Shown: in pieces, positions 30,199-51,529 of the stretch
How positions within the stretch are numbered: the stretch's first letter is position 1
Layout: every line of letters begins with the position of its first letter
DNA from: Fermentimonas sp.
GTDB lineage: Bacteria > Bacteroidota > Bacteroidia > Bacteroidales > Dysgonomonadaceae
Assembly (NCBI GenBank): GCA_015478775.1
Contig: JADMKP010000007.1
Span: forward strand, 744,001-808,000
DNA length: 64,000 bases
Reading direction: 5' to 3'
Position numbers and translations under genes: made by a program
Notes under the pieces: model-generated
Database searches by the model: none
The model's input: the letters and a program-made list of their open reading frames with translations, nothing else
What the model was told of the DNA's origin: nothing

Positions 30199-30218
30199 AT
30201 TAAAAGTAATATAAAAAA

Positions 30219-30549
30219 GCAGCCGGTCTGTAAGCCGGGTTCTGTGCCCAATAAATCGGGTGTCTGTCATTTATCTAAGCGGCCTACCCCTCGGCGTCGG
30301 ACGAGCAGCCCTACTTATCCGATATACATGGCCTTGCAACCCATAATGCGTACGGCATGCTGTGTTGCCACAACACCCGGTGGGCTCTTACCCCACCTTT
30401 TCACCCTTACCCCATTTAAAAAACAGGGCGGTTATTTTCTGTTACGCTAATCTGCCCTCACGAACAGCTTCCCGTTAGGAAACATGGTGCTCTGCGTTGC
30501 CCGGACTTTCCTCCCTCCTTTTACAGAGAGCGACAAACCGACCTGCTGC
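30219..30549 (-). ncRNA. rnpB: RNase P RNA, class A
   Basis: Read on the minus strand, the RNA starts near GCAGCAGGTCGG and contains the universal GGAGGAAAGTCCGGGC block (P4 5' strand, complement of 30498-30514). It ends with ACAGAACCCGGCTTACAGACC (complement near 30228-30248). The termini pair as helix P1 (GCAG/CTGC and GGTC/GACC). A T-run (TTTTTT) follows the 3' end, giving termination. The length of about 331 nt is usual for Bacteroidetes. It is the catalytic RNA that trims tRNA 5' leaders. End positions are estimates to within a few bases. Confidence 0.95.
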
Positions 30550-40004: not shown

Positions 40005-41783
40005 TTACTTATTCAAAAGCATCTTTGCTTCATTTAGCTTTTCATTCCAATCGTTTGGTGGTTCTAGAGTATTAAAGTATTTAATAGTCTCTTCTAGCTC
40101 ATTGAGTTTAGAAAGCGACTCTGCACTGTTTTCATCACTATACTGTTTGCGAAGGACTCTAATCTTTTCTGCATCCTGAATACCTTCCACTAGTCGTTCA
40201 AACCTTATTGAACTGCGTGCATCGGGGTAAACTATGTAGGTATCGCCGGCAGGCCAAGTTCTGTAACGAGAGTCGGTGAGTGGATTCTCTACCCATGAAT
40301 TGTATGACCAGCGCAACATTCCGTCAAAATCTCCGGCAACTGTGCGCCATGCAGAGTAAACGGCTTCTGCAGACTCTGAAAATGTGAAAGTATTTGCAAA
40401 TGGATCGGAACAACATACATACCATGTTGTAACCAAACCGTTTTCTCTTCTTGCAGCAATGTCTTCTACATCCACAACGCTGCCTGCACCTGCACTAATA
40501 TCTTTGATTCCTGGATACTCTTTATAGCTTTTGTGATTGTCGGCAAGTGATATTCCTAACTCTGGTGCGGCATCATTTAAGACTTTTAATGCTGCTTGCA
40601 TATCGGCGGGCGAACGTTCATCCATTGCAATATTGGTTATTTCGAGCCATCCTTTTTCTTTGAGGTGGTGGGTGAAATCTGTAAGAAAGATTGTCCAAAT
40701 TTCTGTGTATTCGGACGACTGTGCAGGTAGCTCAAGTGTTACAAGCTCTTTTTTCTCCATATCATTATAGTGGAGTTTATTGTTCCAGGTTAGAAGAGAG
40801 TAACAGTTGATCATGTCATTTACACCCAGATCCATCATAAACTCAACCCATTTATCGAATACGGTATAATCGAAAATCCAAGTTTGATCTTCGTTCTTTG
40901 TCCAAATAATCATATCTGAATAAGCATCAAAGGATTGATTATTCCATGGATCGATATTTAATGTTGCAGTAATTACTTTCTGACCCGCATCTGCAAGCAT
41001 CTTCATTAGTGGTCTCATTTTATCAAAATGAGCATCGCTCCACATTTCGAGATTATGCACACGCGCCACTGCTGATGGGTGTTGCCATAAATCGAGGTGA
41101 TATACCCATTCTGAGGGATTGGGAAGAAGTTGATCTACCACTTCGATCTCAATTTCAAACTCTTCTGCAAAGTTTCTATCAGCGTATAATTTAAGATTTC
41201 CTTTATATACTCCCGCTACAGCATCGGCTGGGATTGAAAATGTAAGCCAAACTGGTCTTATAGTTTTTGCATCGATATTGAAATTATCTAAGTTGTCCAG
41301 CATATCGGGGGCTAATGATGCGGCGTAATCTTCGGGTTTGCGATGGCCACAACCTTCGGCAAACTCATCGGTCATTACGTAACGCACAAACCTTGCTTGG
41401 GCGATGGAAGCAGGCAAGGTGCTTGCTTCTGACGTGAAGCTATCGAATTCTAGCTCTACCTGATTTACATTGCTTGCCGACCAAAGCAGTAGTTGCCCTG
41501 AAAGTTTTTCGTTTTTCCATCCTGTTACTTTAATACTCTTTGAGGTTGTTACCTGAGGGGCAACCGACTTGGGCATTTTGTCATCTATTGATATAAAAGA
41601 TGCTTGTAGTCCTTCTGGAACATTTGACCAGTCGGAAATCGTATCACTAGTTGGATCTTGCAACTCTTGAAAAGTATTAAATTCTTTTTCAGATCGTTTG
41701 CTATCGCAAGAAAAAAGTGAGGTAAATGCTATACCCAACACGAGGCAAAGCAAAAACAGCCTGCCAAAGTTTTTTAAAGACAT
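40005..41783 (-). CDS. DUF4091-domain lipoprotein, GH123-like
   Basis: A 592-residue lipoprotein (lipobox Cys26, TSLFSC). Residues about 60-220 form a beta-sandwich and residues about 225-470 a TIM-barrel-like region with an Asp388-Glu389 pair (NIAMDERSP). That pair matches the catalytic D-E pair of GH123 N-acetylgalactosaminidases, which use substrate-assisted catalysis. The C-terminal part (about 475-575) is DUF4091: GMLRWSYNSWVENPL, YIVYPDARSSIRFERLVEGI. Function as a glycosidase is inferred. It is a single gene, transcribed towards the GH43 gene. A TATATTTG element (41843-41850) lies upstream. Confidence 0.75.
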   Translation of the reverse strand: MSLKNFGRLFLLCLVLGIAFTSLFSCDSKRSEKEFNTFQELQDPTSDTISDWSNVPEGLQASFISIDDKMPKSVAPQVTTSKSIKVTGWKNEKLSGQLLLWSASNVNQVELEFDSFTSEASTLPASIAQARFVRYVMTDEFAEGCGHRKPEDYAASLAPDMLDNLDNFNIDAKTIRPVWLTFSIPADAVAGVYKGNLKLYADRNFAEEFEIEIEVVDQLLPNPSEWVYHLDLWQHPSAVARVHNLEMWSDAHFDKMRPLMKMLADAGQKVITATLNIDPWNNQSFDAYSDMIIWTKNEDQTWIFDYTVFDKWVEFMMDLGVNDMINCYSLLTWNNKLHYNDMEKKELVTLELPAQSSEYTEIWTIFLTDFTHHLKEKGWLEITNIAMDERSPADMQAALKVLNDAAPELGISLADNHKSYKEYPGIKDISAGAGSVVDVEDIAARRENGLVTTWYVCCSDPFANTFTFSESAEAVYSAWRTVAGDFDGMLRWSYNSWVENPLTDSRYRTWPAGDTYIVYPDARSSIRFERLVEGIQDAEKIRVLRKQYSDENSAESLSKLNELEETIKYFNTLEPPNDWNEKLNEAKMLLNK

Positions 41784-41915: not shown

Positions 41916-41933
41916 ATACCACATTTGTGGTAT
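41916..41933. promoter_or_regulatory. 8-2-8 inverted repeat, candidate operator
   Basis: ATACCACA-TT-TGTGGTAT is a perfect inverted repeat with 8-base arms, 60 bases upstream of the leader-peptide -7 box. The position (about -70) suits an activator. The CACA/TGTG core recalls but does not match the CRP/FNR site. It lies between divergent transcription units and could serve either. Confidence 0.5.
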
Positions 41934-41967: not shown

Positions 41968-42000
41968 GTTGCAGGACTGAAGAATTATAATTTATCTTTG
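41968..42000 (+). promoter_or_regulatory. Promoter of the cysteine-leader operon
   Basis: TATCTTTG at 41993-42000 matches the -7 consensus. GTTG at 41968-41971, 21 bases upstream, is a one-base variant of the -33 TTTG. Transcription would start near 42007, about 40-60 bases before the leader peptide. Confidence 0.55.
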
Positions 42001-42065
42001 TTTCGATAAAAGAGGTAAATAGTTTATAAAAAATAAAATAAATAATAGTGAAAGTATTTACAAAA

Positions 42066-42128
42066 ATGTGTTGTTGTGGAATGGACATGTGTATGACCAT
42101 AAGAAATTGCTGTATCGGAAAAGTTTAA
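42066..42128 (+). CDS. Cys/Met-rich leader peptide (attenuator ORF)
   Basis: A 20-codon ORF starting MCCCGMDMCM and ending NCCIGKV-stop: six Cys and four Met in 20 residues, in runs of three and two Cys codons. An in-frame GTG at 42048 would add six residues. Such a composition is extremely unlikely by chance in this AT-rich genome. The ORF lies between a promoter match and an intrinsic terminator (42153-42188), upstream of a five-gene operon, which is the classic layout of ribosome-mediated attenuation. The last Cys codons lie within TGTATCGG (42111-42118), which can pair with CC-T-GATACA (42161-42169) at the terminator's left arm and loop. Stalling at Cys codons could therefore favour read-through. 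Confidence 0.7.
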   Translation: MCCCGMDMCMTIRNCCIGKV

Positions 42129-42152
42129 ATAAATATGTGCGAATAAAAGTTG

Positions 42153-42188
42153 AAAACTCTCCTGATACAAAATTGGGAGAGTTTTTTT
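42153..42188 (+). terminator. Intrinsic terminator/attenuator in the leader of the binding-protein-SusCD operon
   Basis: AAAACTCTCC (42153-42162) pairs perfectly with GGAGAGTTTT (42176-42185) around a 13-base loop, with seven T at 42182-42188. It stands 24 bases after the leader-peptide stop and 25 bases before the next ATG, so it acts before, not after, the structural genes. Confidence 0.85.
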
Positions 42189-42213
42189 GTAAGAACATTT
42201 AAAAGAAATCACG

Positions 42214-43128
42214 ATGAAAAGTTTTAGGTTAATTCAGTTATCGGTTTTAGTTATATTTACTGTGGGTACAATTCAGAATATTAGTGCAGAATCAATTGAA
42301 TCTTCGAGCAATAAAGAAGTTATAACAATTAAAAGCACCAGGTTTGCTATTCCACTTGTAGAGAAATGGGCAAATGAGTATGAAAAAGTATATCCGGGAG
42401 TGGATATTGTTATTGCTAATAGCAAGGATTTGAAAGATGCTGCCGATTTGAGTTTAGAAAGTTTAATAGGTTTTGATGATTCTAACAAAAAGGAAGATAA
42501 TTTGATTAATGCTGCAAGGTTTGCATTACTACCAATTAGCAATTCAGAAAATCCTTATCTTAAAGAGCTAAACAAGAAAAGGCTAAATTCTAAGGGAATT
42601 AGAGAGTTGTTTTTTGAAAATGGCGAATTTGGAGAGAGCACTGATTCAAAAAAGAAATTGGATTATGAGGTGACCATTTATTCGGGTAATAACTCCGATT
42701 CTTTTGCAGAGGCATTTGCTTCACACTTTGGATATATAAAGGCCGACTTAAAGGGTCGCAAAATCTCAGGAGACGATATTTTTCTTATTGATGCAATTCA
42801 AAAAGACAATGAAGGAATCACGTTTAATAACCTCAGCTATATATTTGATATTAATACACGTAGCTTAAAGAATGGTGTTGCTATTATTCCTCTGGATATA
42901 AGAAAAGATCAGCGGGAAATACTGGAAGAGGCGGATGTAGATAAAACCATAACACTTCTTGAGAATGAAAAAATACCTCTTATCCCTATAGAGAATATTG
43001 GTTTTATTTCTGAATCGAATAACCCGGAAGCTGAAAAGTTTATAGAATGGGTATTATCTGAGGGACAGAAATATAACCGTGAGTTTGGATTTTTAAAAGC
43101 GGAGTATGAACAACTGGCAAATAATTAA
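42214..43128 (+). CDS. Periplasmic PstS/sulfate-type substrate-binding protein
   Basis: A 304-residue secreted protein (signal cleavage near NISAES; no lipobox). The start of the mature domain, EVITIKSTRFAIPLVEKWANEYEKVYPGVDIVIANSK, and the later LNSKGIRELFF and FGESTDSKKKLDYEVTIYSGNNSDSFAEAFASHF fit the PBP-like fold of phosphate, sulfate and molybdate binding proteins. No ABC permease or ATPase is adjacent; instead SusC and SusD follow. The upstream Cys leader suggests the ligand is a sulfur compound, but that is inference. A weak hairpin follows the stop codon. Confidence 0.65.
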   Translation: MKSFRLIQLSVLVIFTVGTIQNISAESIESSSNKEVITIKSTRFAIPLVEKWANEYEKVYPGVDIVIANSKDLKDAADLSLESLIGFDDSNKKEDNLINAARFALLPISNSENPYLKELNKKRLNSKGIRELFFENGEFGESTDSKKKLDYEVTIYSGNNSDSFAEAFASHFGYIKADLKGRKISGDDIFLIDAIQKDNEGITFNNLSYIFDINTRSLKNGVAIIPLDIRKDQREILEEADVDKTITLLENEKIPLIPIENIGFISESNNPEAEKFIEWVLSEGQKYNREFGFLKAEYEQLANN

Positions 43129-43202: not shown

Positions 43203-46200
43203 ATGACAAATATATTGTTTTTTTTCAAGAACAACCAATGGTTCTTGTGTTTAAATAGAACTGTTTACATTTTATTAATTCTCTTTTTATTTAATTTCAC
43301 TACTTATGCTCAAGAGATTATACGTGGAACAGTTGTTGACAGGGCGAATGAGCCCATACCGGGTGTAACGGTTTTTATTAAATCAACCTCATCTGGTACA
43401 ACCACCGATATTGATGGTAATTTTAGTATAACAACAGATCAGGAGCTGCCACTAACTCTAACAATTTCGTTTCTTGGATTTAGATCTACTGAGATTGATG
43501 TGTATGAGGCGGATGAGAATGTGGGTATTACTCTTACAGAAGATATAAATTTTCTGGATGAAGTGGTAGTTGTGGGATACGGAACAGCAAAGAAATCGAG
43601 TTACACCGGTTCTGTAGCTGTTGTTGGAGCCAAGGAGTTGGGTAAACTTGAGATAACCTCGGTAGGAAAAGCTTTGCAGGGTGTAGTACCTGGCTTGCAG
43701 TCAGTTTCATCAGCTGGACAACCAGGAAGTGACGCTTCACTCTATATACGAGGAATCGGGTCTGTTAATGCATCCACCTCACCACTATTTGTTGTTGATG
43801 GTGTTCCTGGTGCAAATCCAAACCAGATTAGCGGTAAAGATATCCAATCCATTTCAATTCTAAAGGATGCTTCAGCTAGTGCACTTTACGGGTCACGAGG
43901 AGCTAATGGGGTTATTATTATTACTACTAAATCGGGTAATCTCAACTCTAAGCCTGTGGTAAACTTTTCTTCGAGTATTGGATTTATAAGTCGTGCTGTA
44001 AAAGATTATTTATACTTATCGACCAATGATTACTACGAACTGCAGTGGGAAGCAATAAGAAACACACAGTTAGATCAGGGGAAATCGGCAGCTGAAGCAG
44101 CTGAATATGCTAGTAGTTATCTAGTGGATGGAGCGCTTAAAGTAAACATTTACGGGCCGCAATACCCTGTTCCTGTAGGCACTGATGGAAATTTAACTGC
44201 TGGTGCAACACCTCTTTGGAATGACGATTGGGGCAAAGCTATATCTCGTACAGGTATAAGGCAGCAGTATGACTTGAGTATTAGTGGTGGTAGTGCAAAT
44301 ACAAGATACTTTGTTTCGGGAGGTTACCTGAATGAAGAGGGATGGATTAGAACTGCTGAATTTGAAAGGATTAATATTCGTACAAATATTCAGTCGAAAG
44401 TAAACAATTGGCTCGAAGCTGGTGCAAACGCATCAATATCCTCAAGTTATCAAAAATCACCTAATCAGAGTGATAGCAACACAGGTAATTTTGCAAACTT
44501 CCAGCGTCTTATATCAAATATATATCCTGTTTACGAACGAAATCCAGATGGAAGCTACCTGTTAGATGCTGATGGTAATAAAAAATGGGATTACGGAATT
44601 TGGCGACCAACTACTGCTATAAGTGGCGCTAATATTCTTGGAAGTGCTGAACATGCTATATCAGGTAATAAAACTGAAGCGGTATTGTTAAGTACTAATA
44701 TGACAATTACATTTTTACAGGGGCTGCTGCTTAGGACTACTGCAAACGCTGATTACAGGTCTTGGAACTCTCACTCTTATTCACACTCATACTACAGCAC
44801 AGGTGTAATTTCGGAAGGTGCAGGAACTGCAAGCAGGGGTTCTAGCAGAACACTAAATTATACTGTAAATAGTTTTCTAGATTATTCTCTTAACATATCT
44901 AATAGACACTCTTTTAATTTACTTGCAGGACCTGAAATTTATGTAAATAATATATCGTCTTTATCGGGTAACAGAACAGGGTTTCAAGTGTTAGGAAAAA
45001 CGGAACCTTCTGCTGGTTCTACTATTGGCACATTCGTGGGCTCTTCAGATAACTACAGACTAGCTAGTTGGCTAACGAAAGTGGATTATAATTATCTAGA
45101 GAGATATCATTTATCTGCAAGTTACAGAAGAGATGGCTCATCAAGATTTAGCAAAGAATCTAGATGGGGCGACTTCTGGTCGGTCGGTGCTTCTTGGAAC
45201 CTGAAAAAAGAAGATTTTCTAAAAAGTGTTCGGGACATTGATAATCTTAACCTTCGATTTAGTTATGGTGCCCAAGGAAATGATAACGTTGGCAACTACG
45301 CCTATGGTGGTTTTTATTCAATTTATAATAGTCTTGATCTGCTTGGTCTTCTTCCATCTGATTTACCTACACCTGAACTCAAATGGGAAACTAATTTGAA
45401 TTTCAATATTGGTGCAGATATATCACTTTTTGACAACAGGCTAATTGCACAAATTGATGTTTATAACAGACAATCTAAAGACTTATTATTTGAAAGACCC
45501 CTATCTCCCTCAACTGGATATAGTGGAATAAATGCTAATATAGGTTCGTTAAGTAATAGAGGAATTGATGGTCAGATAACTGCGACTCCAATAAGAAATA
45601 GGAATTTTAATTGGGACGTAAGCCTTAATTTTGGTCATTACACTAATAAAATAACCAAACTGCCACAAGAAGAGATACTTACTGGCTCTATTGGGCAATA
45701 TGGTAATACTAAAAAAATGGTTGAAGGAGGTTCGGTGTTTGATTTTTATATTAAAGAATGGGCTGGAGTGAAGCCTGAAAATGGAAAGGCTACTTGGTAC
45801 AAAGATATTGTTGATGAAAGTGGTAATGTAACAGGAAGAACTACTACGGAAAACCATACTGAGGCAACTCAATATTTTCAGGGAAGTTCATTACCTGATT
45901 TTTATGGAGGGTTGAACAACTATTTCTCTTATAAGAATTTTGAACTCTCATTTTTGTTTTCATTTAGTATAGGTGGAAAGATATTTGACGGAGATGAACC
46001 AATGATAATGCATTTGGGTTATGCTCCAGGACGCAATTGGTCGCATGAGGCACTTACACGCTGGACTCCTGAAAATCGTGAAACTAACTTTCCGCGTTTG
46101 TCGTATGTTTCAGACCCATGGAATACTATTCCTTCTACAAGGTTTTTATTTGATGCAACATATGCACGATTAAAAAATATTGTTTTTTCATATTCACTAC

Positions 46201-46379
46201 CAGCTAATTTGATATCTAACTGGAATTTGAGCGATGTAAAAATGCAAGTTACAGGTGATAATATACTTACATTCTTTGGTCACAAAGGATTAGACCCAGA
46301 ACAAACTGTAACAGGGTCAACTTATTATCGCTATCCGGCACAGAAATCGTATTCTATAGGTGTTAATGTATCATTCTAA
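43203..46379 (+). CDS. SusC/RagA-family TonB-dependent transporter (no STN domain)
   Basis: A 1058-residue outer-membrane transporter. After an N-terminal signal (about residues 1-36), a carboxypeptidase-regulatory-like domain begins IIRGTVVDRANEPIPGVTVF. Then come the TonB-box region (DEVVVVGYGTAKKSSYTG), the plug (LYIRGIGSVNASTSPLFVVD; SASALYGSRGANGVIIITT) and the barrel ending SYSIGVNVSF. It lacks the STN domain of the other SusC in this window, so it does not signal through FecR; control by the upstream leader is more likely. Neighbours point to peptides or organosulfur compounds rather than polysaccharide as cargo, because no glycosidase is present in the operon. Confidence 0.92.
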   Translation: MTNILFFFKNNQWFLCLNRTVYILLILFLFNFTTYAQEIIRGTVVDRANEPIPGVTVFIKSTSSGTTTDIDGNFSITTDQELPLTLTISFLGFRSTEIDVYEADENVGITLTEDINFLDEVVVVGYGTAKKSSYTGSVAVVGAKELGKLEITSVGKALQGVVPGLQSVSSAGQPGSDASLYIRGIGSVNASTSPLFVVDGVPGANPNQISGKDIQSISILKDASASALYGSRGANGVIIITTKSGNLNSKPVVNFSSSIGFISRAVKDYLYLSTNDYYELQWEAIRNTQLDQGKSAAEAAEYASSYLVDGALKVNIYGPQYPVPVGTDGNLTAGATPLWNDDWGKAISRTGIRQQYDLSISGGSANTRYFVSGGYLNEEGWIRTAEFERINIRTNIQSKVNNWLEAGANASISSSYQKSPNQSDSNTGNFANFQRLISNIYPVYERNPDGSYLLDADGNKKWDYGIWRPTTAISGANILGSAEHAISGNKTEAVLLSTNMTITFLQGLLLRTTANADYRSWNSHSYSHSYYSTGVISEGAGTASRGSSRTLNYTVNSFLDYSLNISNRHSFNLLAGPEIYVNNISSLSGNRTGFQVLGKTEPSAGSTIGTFVGSSDNYRLASWLTKVDYNYLERYHLSASYRRDGSSRFSKESRWGDFWSVGASWNLKKEDFLKSVRDIDNLNLRFSYGAQGNDNVGNYAYGGFYSIYNSLDLLGLLPSDLPTPELKWETNLNFNIGADISLFDNRLIAQIDVYNRQSKDLLFERPLSPSTGYSGINANIGSLSNRGIDGQITATPIRNRNFNWDVSLNFGHYTNKITKLPQEEILTGSIGQYGNTKKMVEGGSVFDFYIKEWAGVKPENGKATWYKDIVDESGNVTGRTTTENHTEATQYFQGSSLPDFYGGLNNYFSYKNFELSFLFSFSIGGKIFDGDEPMIMHLGYAPGRNWSHEALTRWTPENRETNFPRLSYVSDPWNTIPSTRFLFDATYARLKNIVFSYSLPANLISNWNLSDVKMQVTGDNILTFFGHKGLDPEQTVTGSTYYRYPAQKSYSIGVNVSF

Positions 46380-46396
46380 TATAAAAGTAAATAATT

Positions 46397-47899
46397 ATGA
46401 AACTATACAGATTATATATATTATTGGCTTTGGCATTATTAAGTTCATGTAATGATGCTTTTTTCGAAACCACTCCTCCTACTCAGATTTCTACTTCGGA
46501 AGTTTTCTCGTCGGAGAATAATATTGATGCTTTTATCAATGGTGCGTTACGATATTTAATGGAAAATAGTACATCTCAAGATAATCCTGGACTACCAGCA
46601 ATATTTCTCACACATGAGGTGATGGGTGAGGATGCGTTTGCCAGAGATGGAAGATATGGATATAGAGATTCTTACCCTTATCGTGATCCGTTTGATAATA
46701 CAACAAGACGTGCTCTGTTTTTTTGGACTTTACAATATACATCTATTGATCATGCCAATAATATTATTGCTAATATTGAATTAGATGCAAATAGCAGTAC
46801 TAGGCTAAAACACCTTAAGGGACAAGCATATGCTTTGCGCGCATACAATTATTTGAATCTGGTGCGTCAGTACCAGTTTACATATTCTAAAGATTCTAAT
46901 GCACTAGCTGTTCCTGTATATACTGAACCGACTAATCCTGCAACGGTTCCTAATCCTTTGTCATCAGTTAGTTCAATTTATGATTTGATTATTGACGATC
47001 TTAGTGAGGCTGAGAACTTATTACAGGGTTTTGAACGTTCAATAAAAAATCGCCCGAATTTAAACGTTGTTTATGGTCTATTTGCTCGTGCATACCTTAC
47101 ACTTGAAAATTGGACGTTAGCCTCTGAATATGCGAACAAAGCAAGGCAGGGTTTTCAGATAATGACACCAGCTCAGTATGGTGAAGGTTTTAATGATGTT
47201 AGCAATAGAGAATGGATATGGGGACATCCGCAAACTCAAACTCAAAATAAGGGTGGTGCCTCATATTTAGCTTATATTGAAACAACACCTTATACAACAA
47301 ATGCTAACGGTACAAATCTTTATTATGGCTATAACAGTATAATTCCAGATCCTAATTTTGTTGATCTTTTTGAAGATGGAGATATTAGAAAATCTCTTTT
47401 TGAGGTTGCATCACAGCCTGCAGAAGCATTATATGCTCATTACAGATATAAGAAGTTCAGGAATAAATACCCCAATCACGATGGCCATATTATATTAATG
47501 CGCTCTTCTGAGATGCTTTTAATTGAAGCGGAAGCTTATGCGAGGTTGAATAATATTGGAGATGCAGTGCAAACTCTTAATGAATTACGAACAAATAGAA
47601 ATTTATCAAATCTTGATGCTTCTGATTTTAATAATGTGAGTATATTAGATGAAATTTTGCTGGAACGTAGACGAGAACTGTGGGGAGAGGGTTTTCGTTT
47701 GTATGATATTCTACGCCTTCAAAATGCTCCAGTTCGTTTAGAATCCACACACACATTTGTAGACGATGAGGACAAAACTGTTCGAGTTAGAGGTCACTGG
47801 ATTACAAGATTCCCAGATGGATCTGCCTTAGTACCTAATAGCAAGTACTTTCTTTTCCCTATCCCACTTAATGAAATTAATAATAATGATAATTTATAA
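46397..47899 (+). CDS. SusD/RagB-family outer-membrane lipoprotein
   Basis: A 500-residue SusD homologue with lipobox Cys18 (LALLSSC|ND). It has the family pattern LKGQAYALRAYNYLNLVRQYQ near residue 140 and the C-terminal LLERRRELWGEGFRLYDILRLQ. It pairs with the SusC encoded 17 bases upstream to form the lid of the import channel. Like RagB of Porphyromonas gingivalis, which takes up oligopeptides, it is linked to a peptidase gene rather than to glycosidases. Confidence 0.92.
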   Translation: MKLYRLYILLALALLSSCNDAFFETTPPTQISTSEVFSSENNIDAFINGALRYLMENSTSQDNPGLPAIFLTHEVMGEDAFARDGRYGYRDSYPYRDPFDNTTRRALFFWTLQYTSIDHANNIIANIELDANSSTRLKHLKGQAYALRAYNYLNLVRQYQFTYSKDSNALAVPVYTEPTNPATVPNPLSSVSSIYDLIIDDLSEAENLLQGFERSIKNRPNLNVVYGLFARAYLTLENWTLASEYANKARQGFQIMTPAQYGEGFNDVSNREWIWGHPQTQTQNKGGASYLAYIETTPYTTNANGTNLYYGYNSIIPDPNFVDLFEDGDIRKSLFEVASQPAEALYAHYRYKKFRNKYPNHDGHIILMRSSEMLLIEAEAYARLNNIGDAVQTLNELRTNRNLSNLDASDFNNVSILDEILLERRRELWGEGFRLYDILRLQNAPVRLESTHTFVDDEDKTVRVRGHWITRFPDGSALVPNSKYFLFPIPLNEINNNDNL

Positions 47900-47925: not shown

Positions 47926-48915
47926 ATGAAGAAAAATTTAATCTTACTGTTAATTGCAATAATTGCAATTTCATGTAACCAAAAACAAGAAGAGAGTGTA
48001 CTACTTACAGGTAGAGTTGAAGGTGTGGAATCGGGTACTGTGTATCTGCAGAAGTTTCGCAATAAAACGTTTGATATTATTGACTCATCTGAGATAGTTA
48101 ATGGTGAATTTAGCTTCGCAAAGGATGTTGAGTTGCCTGAGATATATGGACTCTCATTAGATTCTACAAAGGGTTCTTTTCTTTTGTTTTTGGATGAGAA
48201 TCAGGCAAATGTTGTTCTTGACTCGGCCAATTATTACAGAAATACAACGGTTGAGGGCTCGGAGCTGCATAACCTTTATGTAGATTATAAGAGCCAAAGG
48301 AATGTTGAAATAGATTCGTTTATCAGACAACATCCTTCTTCATTGGTGTCGGCTTATGCTTTGTATCGCGATTATTCATATCGTTTGACTCCTGAGCAAA
48401 TTAGATCTAACATTGATTTGCTTGATCCGTCTTTAAGGAATACTCCATATGTTGAGACTCTTGAAGAGTTAATTCCTACTCTTGAAGAGGTGTCAGTGGG
48501 TAATGAAGCTCCTAATTTTACTGCAACTGATACTAATGGTAATAGTGTGGAGTTTGCAAACCATATTGGTAAGAGCAAATATGTTTTTCTCGATTTTTGG
48601 GCTTCGTGGTGCGGACCTTGCAGAAGAGAAAATCCTAACATCGTAAGGGCTTATGAAGAATATAAAGATAAAGGTTTTGATATTTTTGCAGTATCGCTAG
48701 ATCATAGCAAAGTGGGATGGCTGGCTGCTATTGAAAAGGATAAACTGACTTGGACTAATGTTACGGATTTAAAGCACTGGGATAGTGAACCGGCTAAACT
48801 TTATGGTGTGAGGGCTATTCCGTCTAACTTCTTGATTGATGAGAATGGGGTTATTGTTGCAAAGAATTTGAAAGGTGAGGATTTGCATAATACGCTCAAT
48901 GATTTATTAAACTAA
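47926..48915 (+). CDS. TlpA/ResA-like thioredoxin-fold lipoprotein with DUF4369-like N-terminus
   Basis: A 329-residue lipoprotein (lipobox Cys17, IAISC). Residues about 25-115 resemble DUF4369 (LTGRVEGVESGTVYLQKFRN). Residues about 190-329 are a TlpA-like thioredoxin domain with active site WCGPC (Cys229, Cys232) in FLDFWASWCGPCRREN and a cis-Pro in GVRAIPSNFLID. It should carry out thiol-disulfide exchange in the periplasm. In this operon it could reduce disulfide-bonded peptides or cystine-type substrates brought in by the SusC/D pair. Confidence 0.88.
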   Translation: MKKNLILLLIAIIAISCNQKQEESVLLTGRVEGVESGTVYLQKFRNKTFDIIDSSEIVNGEFSFAKDVELPEIYGLSLDSTKGSFLLFLDENQANVVLDSANYYRNTTVEGSELHNLYVDYKSQRNVEIDSFIRQHPSSLVSAYALYRDYSYRLTPEQIRSNIDLLDPSLRNTPYVETLEELIPTLEEVSVGNEAPNFTATDTNGNSVEFANHIGKSKYVFLDFWASWCGPCRRENPNIVRAYEEYKDKGFDIFAVSLDHSKVGWLAAIEKDKLTWTNVTDLKHWDSEPAKLYGVRAIPSNFLIDENGVIVAKNLKGEDLHNTLNDLLN

Positions 48916-49012: not shown

Positions 49013-51529
49013 ATGAAACTATTTATATCAATTTTAGTAGCCTCTATTTTGGCTTTTAATTCACTTGTAATTAAAGCAGAAGGGCTAGATTATTACTTCC
49101 CAGATGAAATAAGTGTTGACTCTGCAATTCCTACTCCTGAAGAGTTTTTAGGGTATGTTGTTGGAACCAGAGTTACTGAGCATAGCAGGATTAATGCGTA
49201 TTATGAGAAGCTTGCAGAGCTGTCTGACAGAGCTGAGCTAATTGAGATTGGAAAAAGTCATGAGAGCCGACCGATATATGTATTGGCTATATCATCTCCT
49301 GAAAATATAAATAATTTAAATGAACTTAAAGTGTTGAGGCAAAATGTGAGAAAGGGGTCGAGGGTTAATAGTCCACTAATTATATTTCTTGGTAATACTG
49401 TGCATGGCAACGAGATATCTGGTTCTGAATCTTCTTTATTCTCTGCTTACTATTACATAGCTTCACAAAGTGAAAAGATAATTAATCAGCTGAATGAGAG
49501 TGTGATATTTATCGATCCTGTTCGTAATCCGGATGGACAAGAGAGGTTTGCATCGTGGATAAACTCCAATATTAGTTTCAATAGAAACAACACATCTCAA
49601 TATGACAGAGAGCATAGCGAAGGTTGGCCAAGAGGGCGTGGTAATCATTATTGGTTTGACCTGAATAGAGATTGGGTAAATATTGTGCACCCAGAAAGCA
49701 GAGCTCGTGTGGCTTTGTATCAGGATTGGCTTCCTCATGTTCAGGCCGATCATCATGAGATGGGTACCAACACTTCCTTCTTTTTTGAGCCAACTGATCC
49801 GGAAGGAAATGAGAGTCATCTTATTCCAAAATCAAATTACAAGCTTAACCAATTATTTGCAGAATATTTTGCAGATGCACTTAATAAGATTGGATCTTTC
49901 TATTACACTAAAGAATCTTATGATAATAAAAACCCAAACTTCGGTTCTACATATCCAGATTTTAATGGAGGAGTAGGTATTTTATTCGAACAAGGCTCTT
50001 CTAGGGGCTTGGTTCAGGAGTCAGACAATGGACATCTAACCTTGCCCTTTACTATTCGCAATCAGTTGGTAACAACAATTGCTACTGTTGATGCAGCACA
50101 CGGAAACAAGGATGCTCTTTTTGATTTACAAAATGAATTTTTTACAAAACCATCTGCTAGCATGGATAAAAGAAGGTCTTATATTATTGGTGATGCTTAC
50201 GATTCGGAGCGCTTGAATAAGTTTATTGAATTGCTACTAACGCATAGATTGGAGGTTTATGAGAACGATAATGATGTAGTAATAGATAGTGTTACTTATT
50301 ATAGTGGTAAATCGTATATAATACCTGCCGTTCAGCCCAACAGTGCACTTGTAGGAATAATATTTGATGATAAAATCGACTTTGATGATGAAAGTAAATT
50401 AGGGTATGGTGCAGGTTTTTCTATTGCGCATTCATCTGGTTTATCTAATGGAATATCAAACTCGGTGAATAGAGGAAACAGAGTAGAATCGGTACCAAAT
50501 ATCTCTAATAATGGTTTTCAGAAATCTGATTACGCATATTTGATTGATTTCCGTAATTCGGGTAGTCAGAAATTGGTCTTGAATCTTCTGGAAAATGATA
50601 TAAATGTGAAAACGGGTACAAAGACTTTCTCAATAAACAACCAATCGGGGGAGAAAGATTTCTCATATGGAAGTCTGCTAATTCCTGTGAGCACACAAAA
50701 GATTGGCTCTGATGAACTATATGAAACACTTAAGAATCTTTCGGCTCAAAGTAGTGTTGAAATTATACCCGTTAATTCGGGCTTTAATTTTAAAGGTGTT
50801 GATTTAGGAAGTAGCTCATTTAGGAATATTGATAAGCCGAAGGTACTTATTGTTACAGGTGCAGATATTTCCTCAACTGAGGCAGGTGAAGTGTGGCATT
50901 TGTTTGATCAACAGCTTCATTATCCACTTACTAGGGTAAATGCAGAGAATTTTAGACGAGTGCCTCTAAATGAATTCAATCGCATTGTGCTGGTTAGTGG
51001 AAGTTACGATTTTTTAAACGAATTGCAATTAGATGAACTTAAAGGCTGGGTAAAAGGTGGAGGTACACTCATTACAATTAATGGAGCTTCGCAATGGGCG
51101 ATAAATAACAAGATATCATCTGAAAGCATTGTCGCCCAAAATGATAGTAATGCCAATAACAACAGAAATAGCAATGGCAGATCTTCAAGACAGCCAACAT
51201 CAATTTTTATGTCTACGATAGACTTAACAAATCCGCTTGCATTTGGGCTAACCTCTGAAAGATTGCCTGTGATAAGGGAAAGCAACCTCTTTATTGCATC
51301 AACACCAAATAGTATTGCAACTTATGATGAGAACCCACTTCTTAATGGTTTTATATCTGCTGATAATTTAAATCAACTTACTCAATCTTCGTCAATTACA
51401 GCAAACAGATCAGGACGAGGTAATGTGATTCAATTTGCAGATAACCCTCTGTTTAGAGGAATATGGCATGGAACAAGCAGAACATTTGTAAATGCTGTGC
51501 TTTTTGGTAACTTAGTTAATGGTAGATAA
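49013..51529 (+). CDS. Secreted M14-family zinc carboxypeptidase
   Basis: An 838-residue secreted peptidase (Sec signal about 1-22). Zinc ligands His131 and Glu134 are in NTVHGNEISG and the third is His247 or His248 in QADHHEMG. The substrate-binding Asn-Arg type residues are in DPVRNPDGQERF, and the catalytic Glu326 is in GILFEQGSSRG. The catalytic domain ends near residue 370; the remaining 470 residues are extra beta-rich domains, including a GATase-like region (KVLIVTGADISS; RIVLVSGSYDFLNE; LKGWVKGGGTLITINGAS). This is the large M14 type of Bacteroidetes. It would trim peptides in the periplasm, fitting a peptide-uptake operon. Confidence 0.88.
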   Translation: MKLFISILVASILAFNSLVIKAEGLDYYFPDEISVDSAIPTPEEFLGYVVGTRVTEHSRINAYYEKLAELSDRAELIEIGKSHESRPIYVLAISSPENINNLNELKVLRQNVRKGSRVNSPLIIFLGNTVHGNEISGSESSLFSAYYYIASQSEKIINQLNESVIFIDPVRNPDGQERFASWINSNISFNRNNTSQYDREHSEGWPRGRGNHYWFDLNRDWVNIVHPESRARVALYQDWLPHVQADHHEMGTNTSFFFEPTDPEGNESHLIPKSNYKLNQLFAEYFADALNKIGSFYYTKESYDNKNPNFGSTYPDFNGGVGILFEQGSSRGLVQESDNGHLTLPFTIRNQLVTTIATVDAAHGNKDALFDLQNEFFTKPSASMDKRRSYIIGDAYDSERLNKFIELLLTHRLEVYENDNDVVIDSVTYYSGKSYIIPAVQPNSALVGIIFDDKIDFDDESKLGYGAGFSIAHSSGLSNGISNSVNRGNRVESVPNISNNGFQKSDYAYLIDFRNSGSQKLVLNLLENDINVKTGTKTFSINNQSGEKDFSYGSLLIPVSTQKIGSDELYETLKNLSAQSSVEIIPVNSGFNFKGVDLGSSSFRNIDKPKVLIVTGADISSTEAGEVWHLFDQQLHYPLTRVNAENFRRVPLNEFNRIVLVSGSYDFLNELQLDELKGWVKGGGTLITINGASQWAINNKISSESIVAQNDSNANNNRNSNGRSSRQPTSIFMSTIDLTNPLAFGLTSERLPVIRESNLFIASTPNSIATYDENPLLNGFISADNLNQLTQSSSITANRSGRGNVIQFADNPLFRGIWHGTSRTFVNAVLFGNLVNGR

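Follow-up and report, generated by a model that had tools for sequence, protein, structure and literature searches.

In the classical trp and his attenuators a codon cluster is followed by an antiterminator strand, a terminator and the genes, while in mycobacteria leaderless polycysteine uORFs have reportedly been described, by Canestrari et al. in 2020, as cysteine-responsive attenuators. The leader described here precedes a SusCD operon in the window (the whole 64-kb stretch of DNA analysed, from a 2.9 Mb genome that, judging by its SusCD genes and type of promoter, probably belongs to the Bacteroidota). It shares the part order of the trp and his attenuators but would read two sulfur amino acids together, is aimed at uptake, and occurs as tandem units in several relatives. 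With the mycobacterial uORFs it has in common a short ORF with Cys codons upstream of genes and, as predicted here, their Cys response; it differs from them in its Met codons beside Cys, in its intrinsic terminator and antiterminator, in the transporter operon behind it and in belonging to another phylum. SusCD systems are mostly regarded as glycan importers, and to our knowledge most of them have no known substrate.

Leaders predicted for cys operons of Actinobacteria have runs of Cys codons near the stop and no conserved terminator, and Rho was proposed for them (PMC1262725). As portrayed there, they are much like the leaders of sister genera described below, whereas the genus of the window has complete intrinsic-terminator attenuators and an outer-membrane importer as target. 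CruR (PMC9426467) has 145 residues, DUF2946, and CXXC and RAPP motifs; it too is a uORF with Cys before a TonB-dependent transporter, and its Rho output resembles the supposed form in the sister genera. The window leader is without DUF2946, CXXC and RAPP and has 26 residues against those 145. In the same phylum as the window, the available sections on Flavobacterium psychrophilum (PMC9723704) contain hints of attenuation by leader peptides before operons for amino-acid biosynthesis and report, as importer control, a cobalamin riboswitch before a TonB-dependent transporter; they name no Cys leader. For B. thetaiotaomicron, long 5' UTRs with short ORFs are described in general (PMC7366714). The literature searched, which covered few subscription papers, yielded no account of Cys/Met leaders ahead of SusCD operons in the Bacteroidota.

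Leader, terminator and operon

The elements of the locus and its surroundings are as follows:

30215-30549, reverse strand: RNase P RNA, class A (Rfam RF00010)
40005-41783, reverse strand: GH123 gene, divergent, upstream neighbour of the leader region
41916-41933, no strand: 18-bp perfect palindrome ATACCACATTTGTGGTAT ahead of the promoter, candidate site for a regulator
41993-42000, forward strand: putative promoter element TATCTTTG, Bacteroidota-type -7, by motif match; transcription would start near 42007
42048-42128, forward strand: leader peptide gene VKVFTKMCCCGMDMCMTIRNCCIGKV, GTG start favoured, ATG 42066 also in frame
42066-42095, forward strand: putative sensor cluster MCCCGMDMCM, four Cys and four Met in ten codons
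42111-42118, forward strand: candidate antiterminator strand TGTATCGG, starting 15 nt past the last cluster codon
42154-42188, forward strand: intrinsic terminator, 13-bp stem of 42154-42166 with 42172-42184, loop 42167-42171, U tract to 42188
42214-43128, forward strand: PstS/solute-binding-like protein, first structural gene, 304 aa, no match above family cut-off
43203-46379, forward strand: SusC/RagA TonB-linked outer-membrane transporter (TIGR04056, E 1.7e-244)
46397-47899, forward strand: SusD/RagB lipoprotein (PF07980)
47926-48915, forward strand: DUF4369 and TlpA/ResA-like thiol-disulfide protein (PF14289, PF00578)
49013-51529, forward strand: M14 zinc carboxypeptidase-like protein, with which the conserved operon ends (PF00246)

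The Cys-rich leader ORF of the preliminary description is real: from ATG 42066 to the TAA at 42126-42128 it encodes MCCCGMDMCMTIRNCCIGKV, 20 codons with six Cys and four Met, consecutive Cys codons (CCC) occupying codons 2-4. An in-frame GTG at 42048 extends it to 26 codons and looks likelier as the start, because the N-terminus thus gained is common to relatives (VKVY.., VKIF.., VRIF.., LKTF..). With Cys plus Met counted in ten codons, the window leader scores 8, and 7 of 5,800 shuffled upstream regions score at least 5. The 26-residue ORF has no Pfam match and no RAPP motif. The string ATGTGYTGY occurs at 79 places in its own genome and is not specific, and an exact degenerate pattern of the peptide core gave five matches in the contig collection, none in Bacteroidota by record title.

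Also confirmed was the intrinsic terminator claimed before the structural genes, although a generic terminator scan did not list the stem at 42154-42184. The stem (AAACTCTCCTGAT/ATTGGGAGAGTTT, two G-U pairs) encloses the loop ACAAA and is followed by U. An alternative pairing between a strand overlapping the last Cys codons and the terminator arm and loop had been drawn with a bulge; the pairing stands, and TGTATCGG with CTGATACA (42162-42169, covering part of the terminator 5' arm and the loop) forms eight contiguous pairs, one of them G-U, so that no bulge is needed. The fold of the 200-nt leader was equalled by none of its 200 shuffles (z -2.98), and the antiterminator duplex energy of the window copy alone was reached by 10 of 500. 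The minimum-energy fold also has a 5' helper helix between 42001-42008 and the antiterminator strand; since L016 has other bases there and the helix probably lies partly before the transcript start, it was dropped.

Upstream, TATCTTTG is presumably the Bacteroidota -7 promoter motif; its position implies about 40 nt of transcript 5' of the GTG, with the start placed from the motif. The element TAnnTTTG is also present in L016, L021, L022 and other loci. A scan for sigma-70-type promoters gave no site at 41993-42000 and found six overall, against 7.9 in shuffles, and an Rfam search of the 64-kb window returned RNase P only.

Behind the leader, SusC and SusD are present as had been described, but the first gene encodes the solute-binding-like protein and not SusC. 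The order binding protein, SusC, SusD, TlpA and M14 is kept in several relatives, and an aspartokinase-homoserine dehydrogenase gene lies 3' of the operon. The binding protein had no match in a PDB sequence search. In the nearest relative, L061, it is 82% identical, while the SusC N-terminal part is 62% and the barrel about 22% identical; L059 and L063 present a picture resembling that of L061. It looks like SusC has been exchanged behind a constant leader and binding protein.

Conservation and geometry of the units

Homologues of the binding protein were found at 29 places in 27 of 101 family genomes, the window genome included. A leader ORF with at least six Cys and Met in ten codons lies upstream at 18 of the 29 loci, and weaker leaders were recognised by eye at three more (L028, MRMSMCCF; L031 and L032, MRMHCC). 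The eight loci with no leader comprise a contig end (L029), an unclear case (L033) and the distant homologues L038-L043, with 28-37% identity. As a control, 206 ORF upstream regions in 20 stretches were scored: 14 reached at least 6, namely 13 before the binding protein and one before SusC, and seven more reached 4 or 5, one being a second SusC leader (MRMCC) and the rest apparently chance. At homologue places in other families of the order, no leader was seen at 29 of 50, two of these having <200 nt upstream.

If the peptide matters, Cys codons should be kept while their surroundings vary, as the preliminary description had pointed out, and this pattern was found. The window leader and that of its nearest relative L016 (82% protein identity) differ in 5 of 27 codons, four of them non-synonymously at codons other than Cys and Met and one synonymously at a Cys codon. 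Likewise, the cluster is kept in all 14 units of the genus, with drift in order and length.

These 14 units are the distinct leader-terminator units of nine genus loci, aligned with L017 standing for L018, whose leader is identical; L018 and six later units away from the binding protein were left out. Tandem pairs of units occur in five of the nine loci. The terminator stem measures 11-14 bp in every unit, and in 6 of its 13 aligned pairs both partners have changed. Every unit also has an upstream strand able to pair with the terminator 5' arm and loop. The antiterminator strand is paired in 92.9% of cells, a value reached by 8 of 500 column shuffles; sliding it by 1-3 columns lowers this to 30-51%. 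Changes on both sides affect three of the eight antiterminator pairs, which 54 of 500 column shuffles equal; the double-changed cells are equalled by 20 and the covariation score by 33 of 500. Because of these counts we regard the covariation support for the antiterminator as weak to moderate. Across single units the duplex energy is modest, being reached by 0 to 188 of 500 shuffles, the highest count being that of L021. One reading frame gives C-I-G or R-V-G for the strand, another gives I-V-L-D or N-V-S-G. What is conserved in the strand is therefore the bases, and in the cluster the amino acids.

With the cluster defined as Cys/Met codons at most three codons apart, from the first Cys pair on, the antiterminator strand begins 15 nt past the last cluster codon in seven units, 14 nt past it in five and 12 nt past it in two. 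The stop codon follows 15-19 nt past the start of the strand (13 units). Ahead of its A site a ribosome covers about as much as the gap from cluster to strand. With this footprint, the spacing fits attenuation in that a stalled ribosome would free the antiterminator strand and a finishing one would cover it. The last two Cys codons of the window leader overlap the strand and are not conserved as Cys (CRIG, CRVG and IVLD in relatives); given the ribosome geometry, they look like RNA structure and not sensor, which is more likely formed by the first ten codons from the ATG. What the aligned units show directly is the set of parts, how it is conserved and that its spacing is nearly constant.

A search of the genus with a model of the units (R1) gave matches in 29 of 39 genomes at E 0.1 or better, and at 1e-5 in 22 places in 11 genomes, 16 of them at model-source loci or their twin. 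In the window genome the unit was found once only. Of the six units away from the binding protein, a tandem pair stands before a SusC-SusD-TlpA operon in L108 and a single unit before another SusC in L071; L111 has one at a contig end, and L109 and L110 have one each. The weaker matches G071, G073 and G081 are plain terminators without leaders and were rejected.

Predicted mechanism and signal

We consider it very probable that the unit is a ribosome-mediated transcription attenuator reading the supply of charged tRNA-Cys and probably of tRNA-Met. The leader peptide would be translated while RNA polymerase is entering the leader. If Cys and Met suffice, the ribosome would pass MCCCGMDMCM and cover TGTATCGG as it finishes the ORF, and the terminator would form before the operon. 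In a Cys/Met shortage it would stall on a cluster codon with its leading edge just short of TGTATCGG; the freed strand would pair with the terminator 5' arm and loop, no terminator would form, and the import operon for the binding protein, SusCD, TlpA and M14 would be transcribed. We infer translation, stalling and termination, the molecule that is sensed and the import of a sulfur source.

The first idea of an attenuator governed by charged tRNA-Cys was largely right, the parts being conserved in 14 units. It was too narrow in naming Cys alone: since Met codons are about as frequent as Cys codons within the cluster, the signal is probably sulfur amino acids. The contrast drawn between import and biosynthesis is true at the window but does not extend to relatives, which have leaders before Cys/Met-metabolism genes. 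Within the genus, a complete unit in L109 and L110 precedes a PLP enzyme of Cys/Met metabolism (best model methionine gamma-lyase, below cut-off). A strict MCMCC-stop pattern had one match in 395 genomes of the class and none in the control. This match precedes serine acetyltransferase- and cysteine synthase-like genes, both with best models below cut-offs and the latter cut by the locus end. The 41 genomes of its genus have 24 serine-acetyltransferase-like places in 22 genomes; a Cys-rich ORF tail was found at four of these, the original included and one ending in CCCCC, and none at the other 20. At L176, an ORF with five terminal Cys codons lies 127-199 nt upstream of the serine-acetyltransferase-like match.

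Similar leaders were found in other families. In two genomes of one family, about 295 nt separate an ORF ending in RMCMCC from a downstream TonB receptor, behind which comes a fused siroheme synthase/TauE sulfite exporter (Pfam was run on one of the two). In another, an ORF with TCCCGQHLMRMCMCMC precedes a SAM riboswitch and then a metY-metX-like operon that encodes a Cys/Met PLP enzyme, an alpha/beta hydrolase (metX-like by position) and homoserine dehydrogenase. A phylum pattern matched 12 times in 395 genomes, against four for its control, and three of the matches only are leader-like (L045, L046, L053). At L053:1500-1701, a Cys/Met-rich ORF directly before a SAM riboswitch places two sulfur sensors in a row. 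In a sister genus, family models place the binding protein and peptidase of L069 beside cystathionine-type enzymes and MetQ, and a second genome (L070) resembles it by eye. Because such leaders precede sulfur genes elsewhere, the supply of Cys and Met is most likely the signal, rather than copper or redox.

An attenuator answering to the supply of Met, or of Met and SAM, with the Cys codons secondary, is unlikely. It would agree with the share of Met in the cluster, with the one related leader before a SAM riboswitch and methionine operon, and with MetQ beside the binding protein in the sister genus, but other leader tails are purely or mostly Cys (MRMCCC, MRMHCC, CCCCC) and one leader precedes serine acetyltransferase and cysteine synthase.

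We also find it improbable that the nascent peptide senses copper or thiol/redox state through its Cys and Met side chains, like CruR in Bordetella. Cys/Met-rich motifs are typical copper ligands, and the window operon includes a TlpA-like thiol-disulfide protein. The CruR uORF precedes a TonB-dependent transporter and acts through its CXXC motif and stalling (PMC9426467). The order, number and spacing of Cys and Met in the leaders, however, vary widely (MCCCGMDMCM, CCMTMCCCMAMCM, MRMSMCCC, CCPYMRMCMPC, MRMHCC), which fits codons better than a ligand site. In addition, the window leader is without a RAPP-like arrest motif, and the leaders of relatives precede cysteine and methionine genes.

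There is very little to be said for an RNA signal in the TGTATG/TGTTGT bases, such as a protein-binding site, with the ORF incidental: alternating Cys and Met codons do give rise to UG-rich repeats, but the units use both Cys codons (63 TGT to 21 TGC, one unit read out of frame included), the sole difference from the nearest relative at a Cys codon is synonymous while codons next to the Cys codons carry amino-acid changes, the distance of 12-15 nt from cluster end to antiterminator strand fits a ribosome, and the sister-genus tail lies at or just before the ORF stop codon. A chance ORF was rejected as the main reading.

Sister-genus leaders and the upstream palindrome

At 11 loci of sister genera, the Cys/Met tail is found at or just before the stop codon of the ORF. 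No strong terminator was seen behind these leaders, the best hairpin (-10.5 kcal/mol) lying inside the ORF, compared with terminator hairpins of -14.8 to -23.1 kcal/mol in the nine genus loci. C exceeds G in at least 73% of 78-nt sequence windows in 10 of the 11 (32% in L037), against 0-21% in six genus leaders and a median of 33% over 110 upstream regions. Ten of these 110 lie before the binding protein, and seven of the ten rank in the top 16 by C-minus-G; the other nine of the 16, including the top one, belong to other genes. As the sister-genus leaders are mostly C-rich and G-poor and have no strong terminator, this composition suggests Rho as their output, at a site that would be shielded by a ribosome stalled at the stop, an idea also raised for the cys leaders of Actinobacteria (PMC1262725). 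When 12 genomes were searched with a pattern for the sister-genus tail, 13 matches turned up in 9 of them and none with the control: six before the binding protein, five before SusC genes and two by chance. The sensor seems to have been kept while the type of terminator changed between the genus and its sister genera.

For the Bacteroidota as a whole, we lean towards the view that the Cys/Met leader family is a common sulfur-amino-acid sensor before SusCD importers and Cys/Met genes, with an exchanged output (intrinsic terminator and antiterminator versus, probably, Rho), and that it marks SusCD systems for a sulfur source and not for a glycan. The leader would then offer a hypothesis on the substrate that needs nothing but sequence, and a handle for finding other such SusCD systems. 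If true, it would also illustrate clearly how one sensor persists while the mechanism of termination behind it is exchanged.

The palindrome ATACCACATTTGTGGTAT hints at a second, protein-based layer of control. Of 29 homologue loci, 19 have its form ATACC-N8-GGTAT at most 900 nt before the binding-protein gene, six of these 19 without a leader (L033, L038, L039, L041-L043). The genus loci L017-L024, mostly with tandem leaders, do not have it; it may be the site of a regulator, perhaps a sulfur regulator, and leader units may have taken over part of its role in the genus. The palindrome was rejected as marker of a regulon in its own genome, with one other exact match, which is intragenic, and five control matches. 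The palindrome also stands before three SusC leaders (L144, L150, L151) and not before two others (L154, L155). In most loci where TAnnTTTG follows, it starts 39-40 nt before that element, compared with 77 nt in the window. At L039, which is the same place as L075, the palindrome occurs without a leader and adjoins cysD, cysN and cysH. Beside these three genes, L075:3051-11375 encodes PstC/PstA-like permeases together with a distant binding-protein homologue; this transporter, of the phosphate type by models, may carry sulfate.
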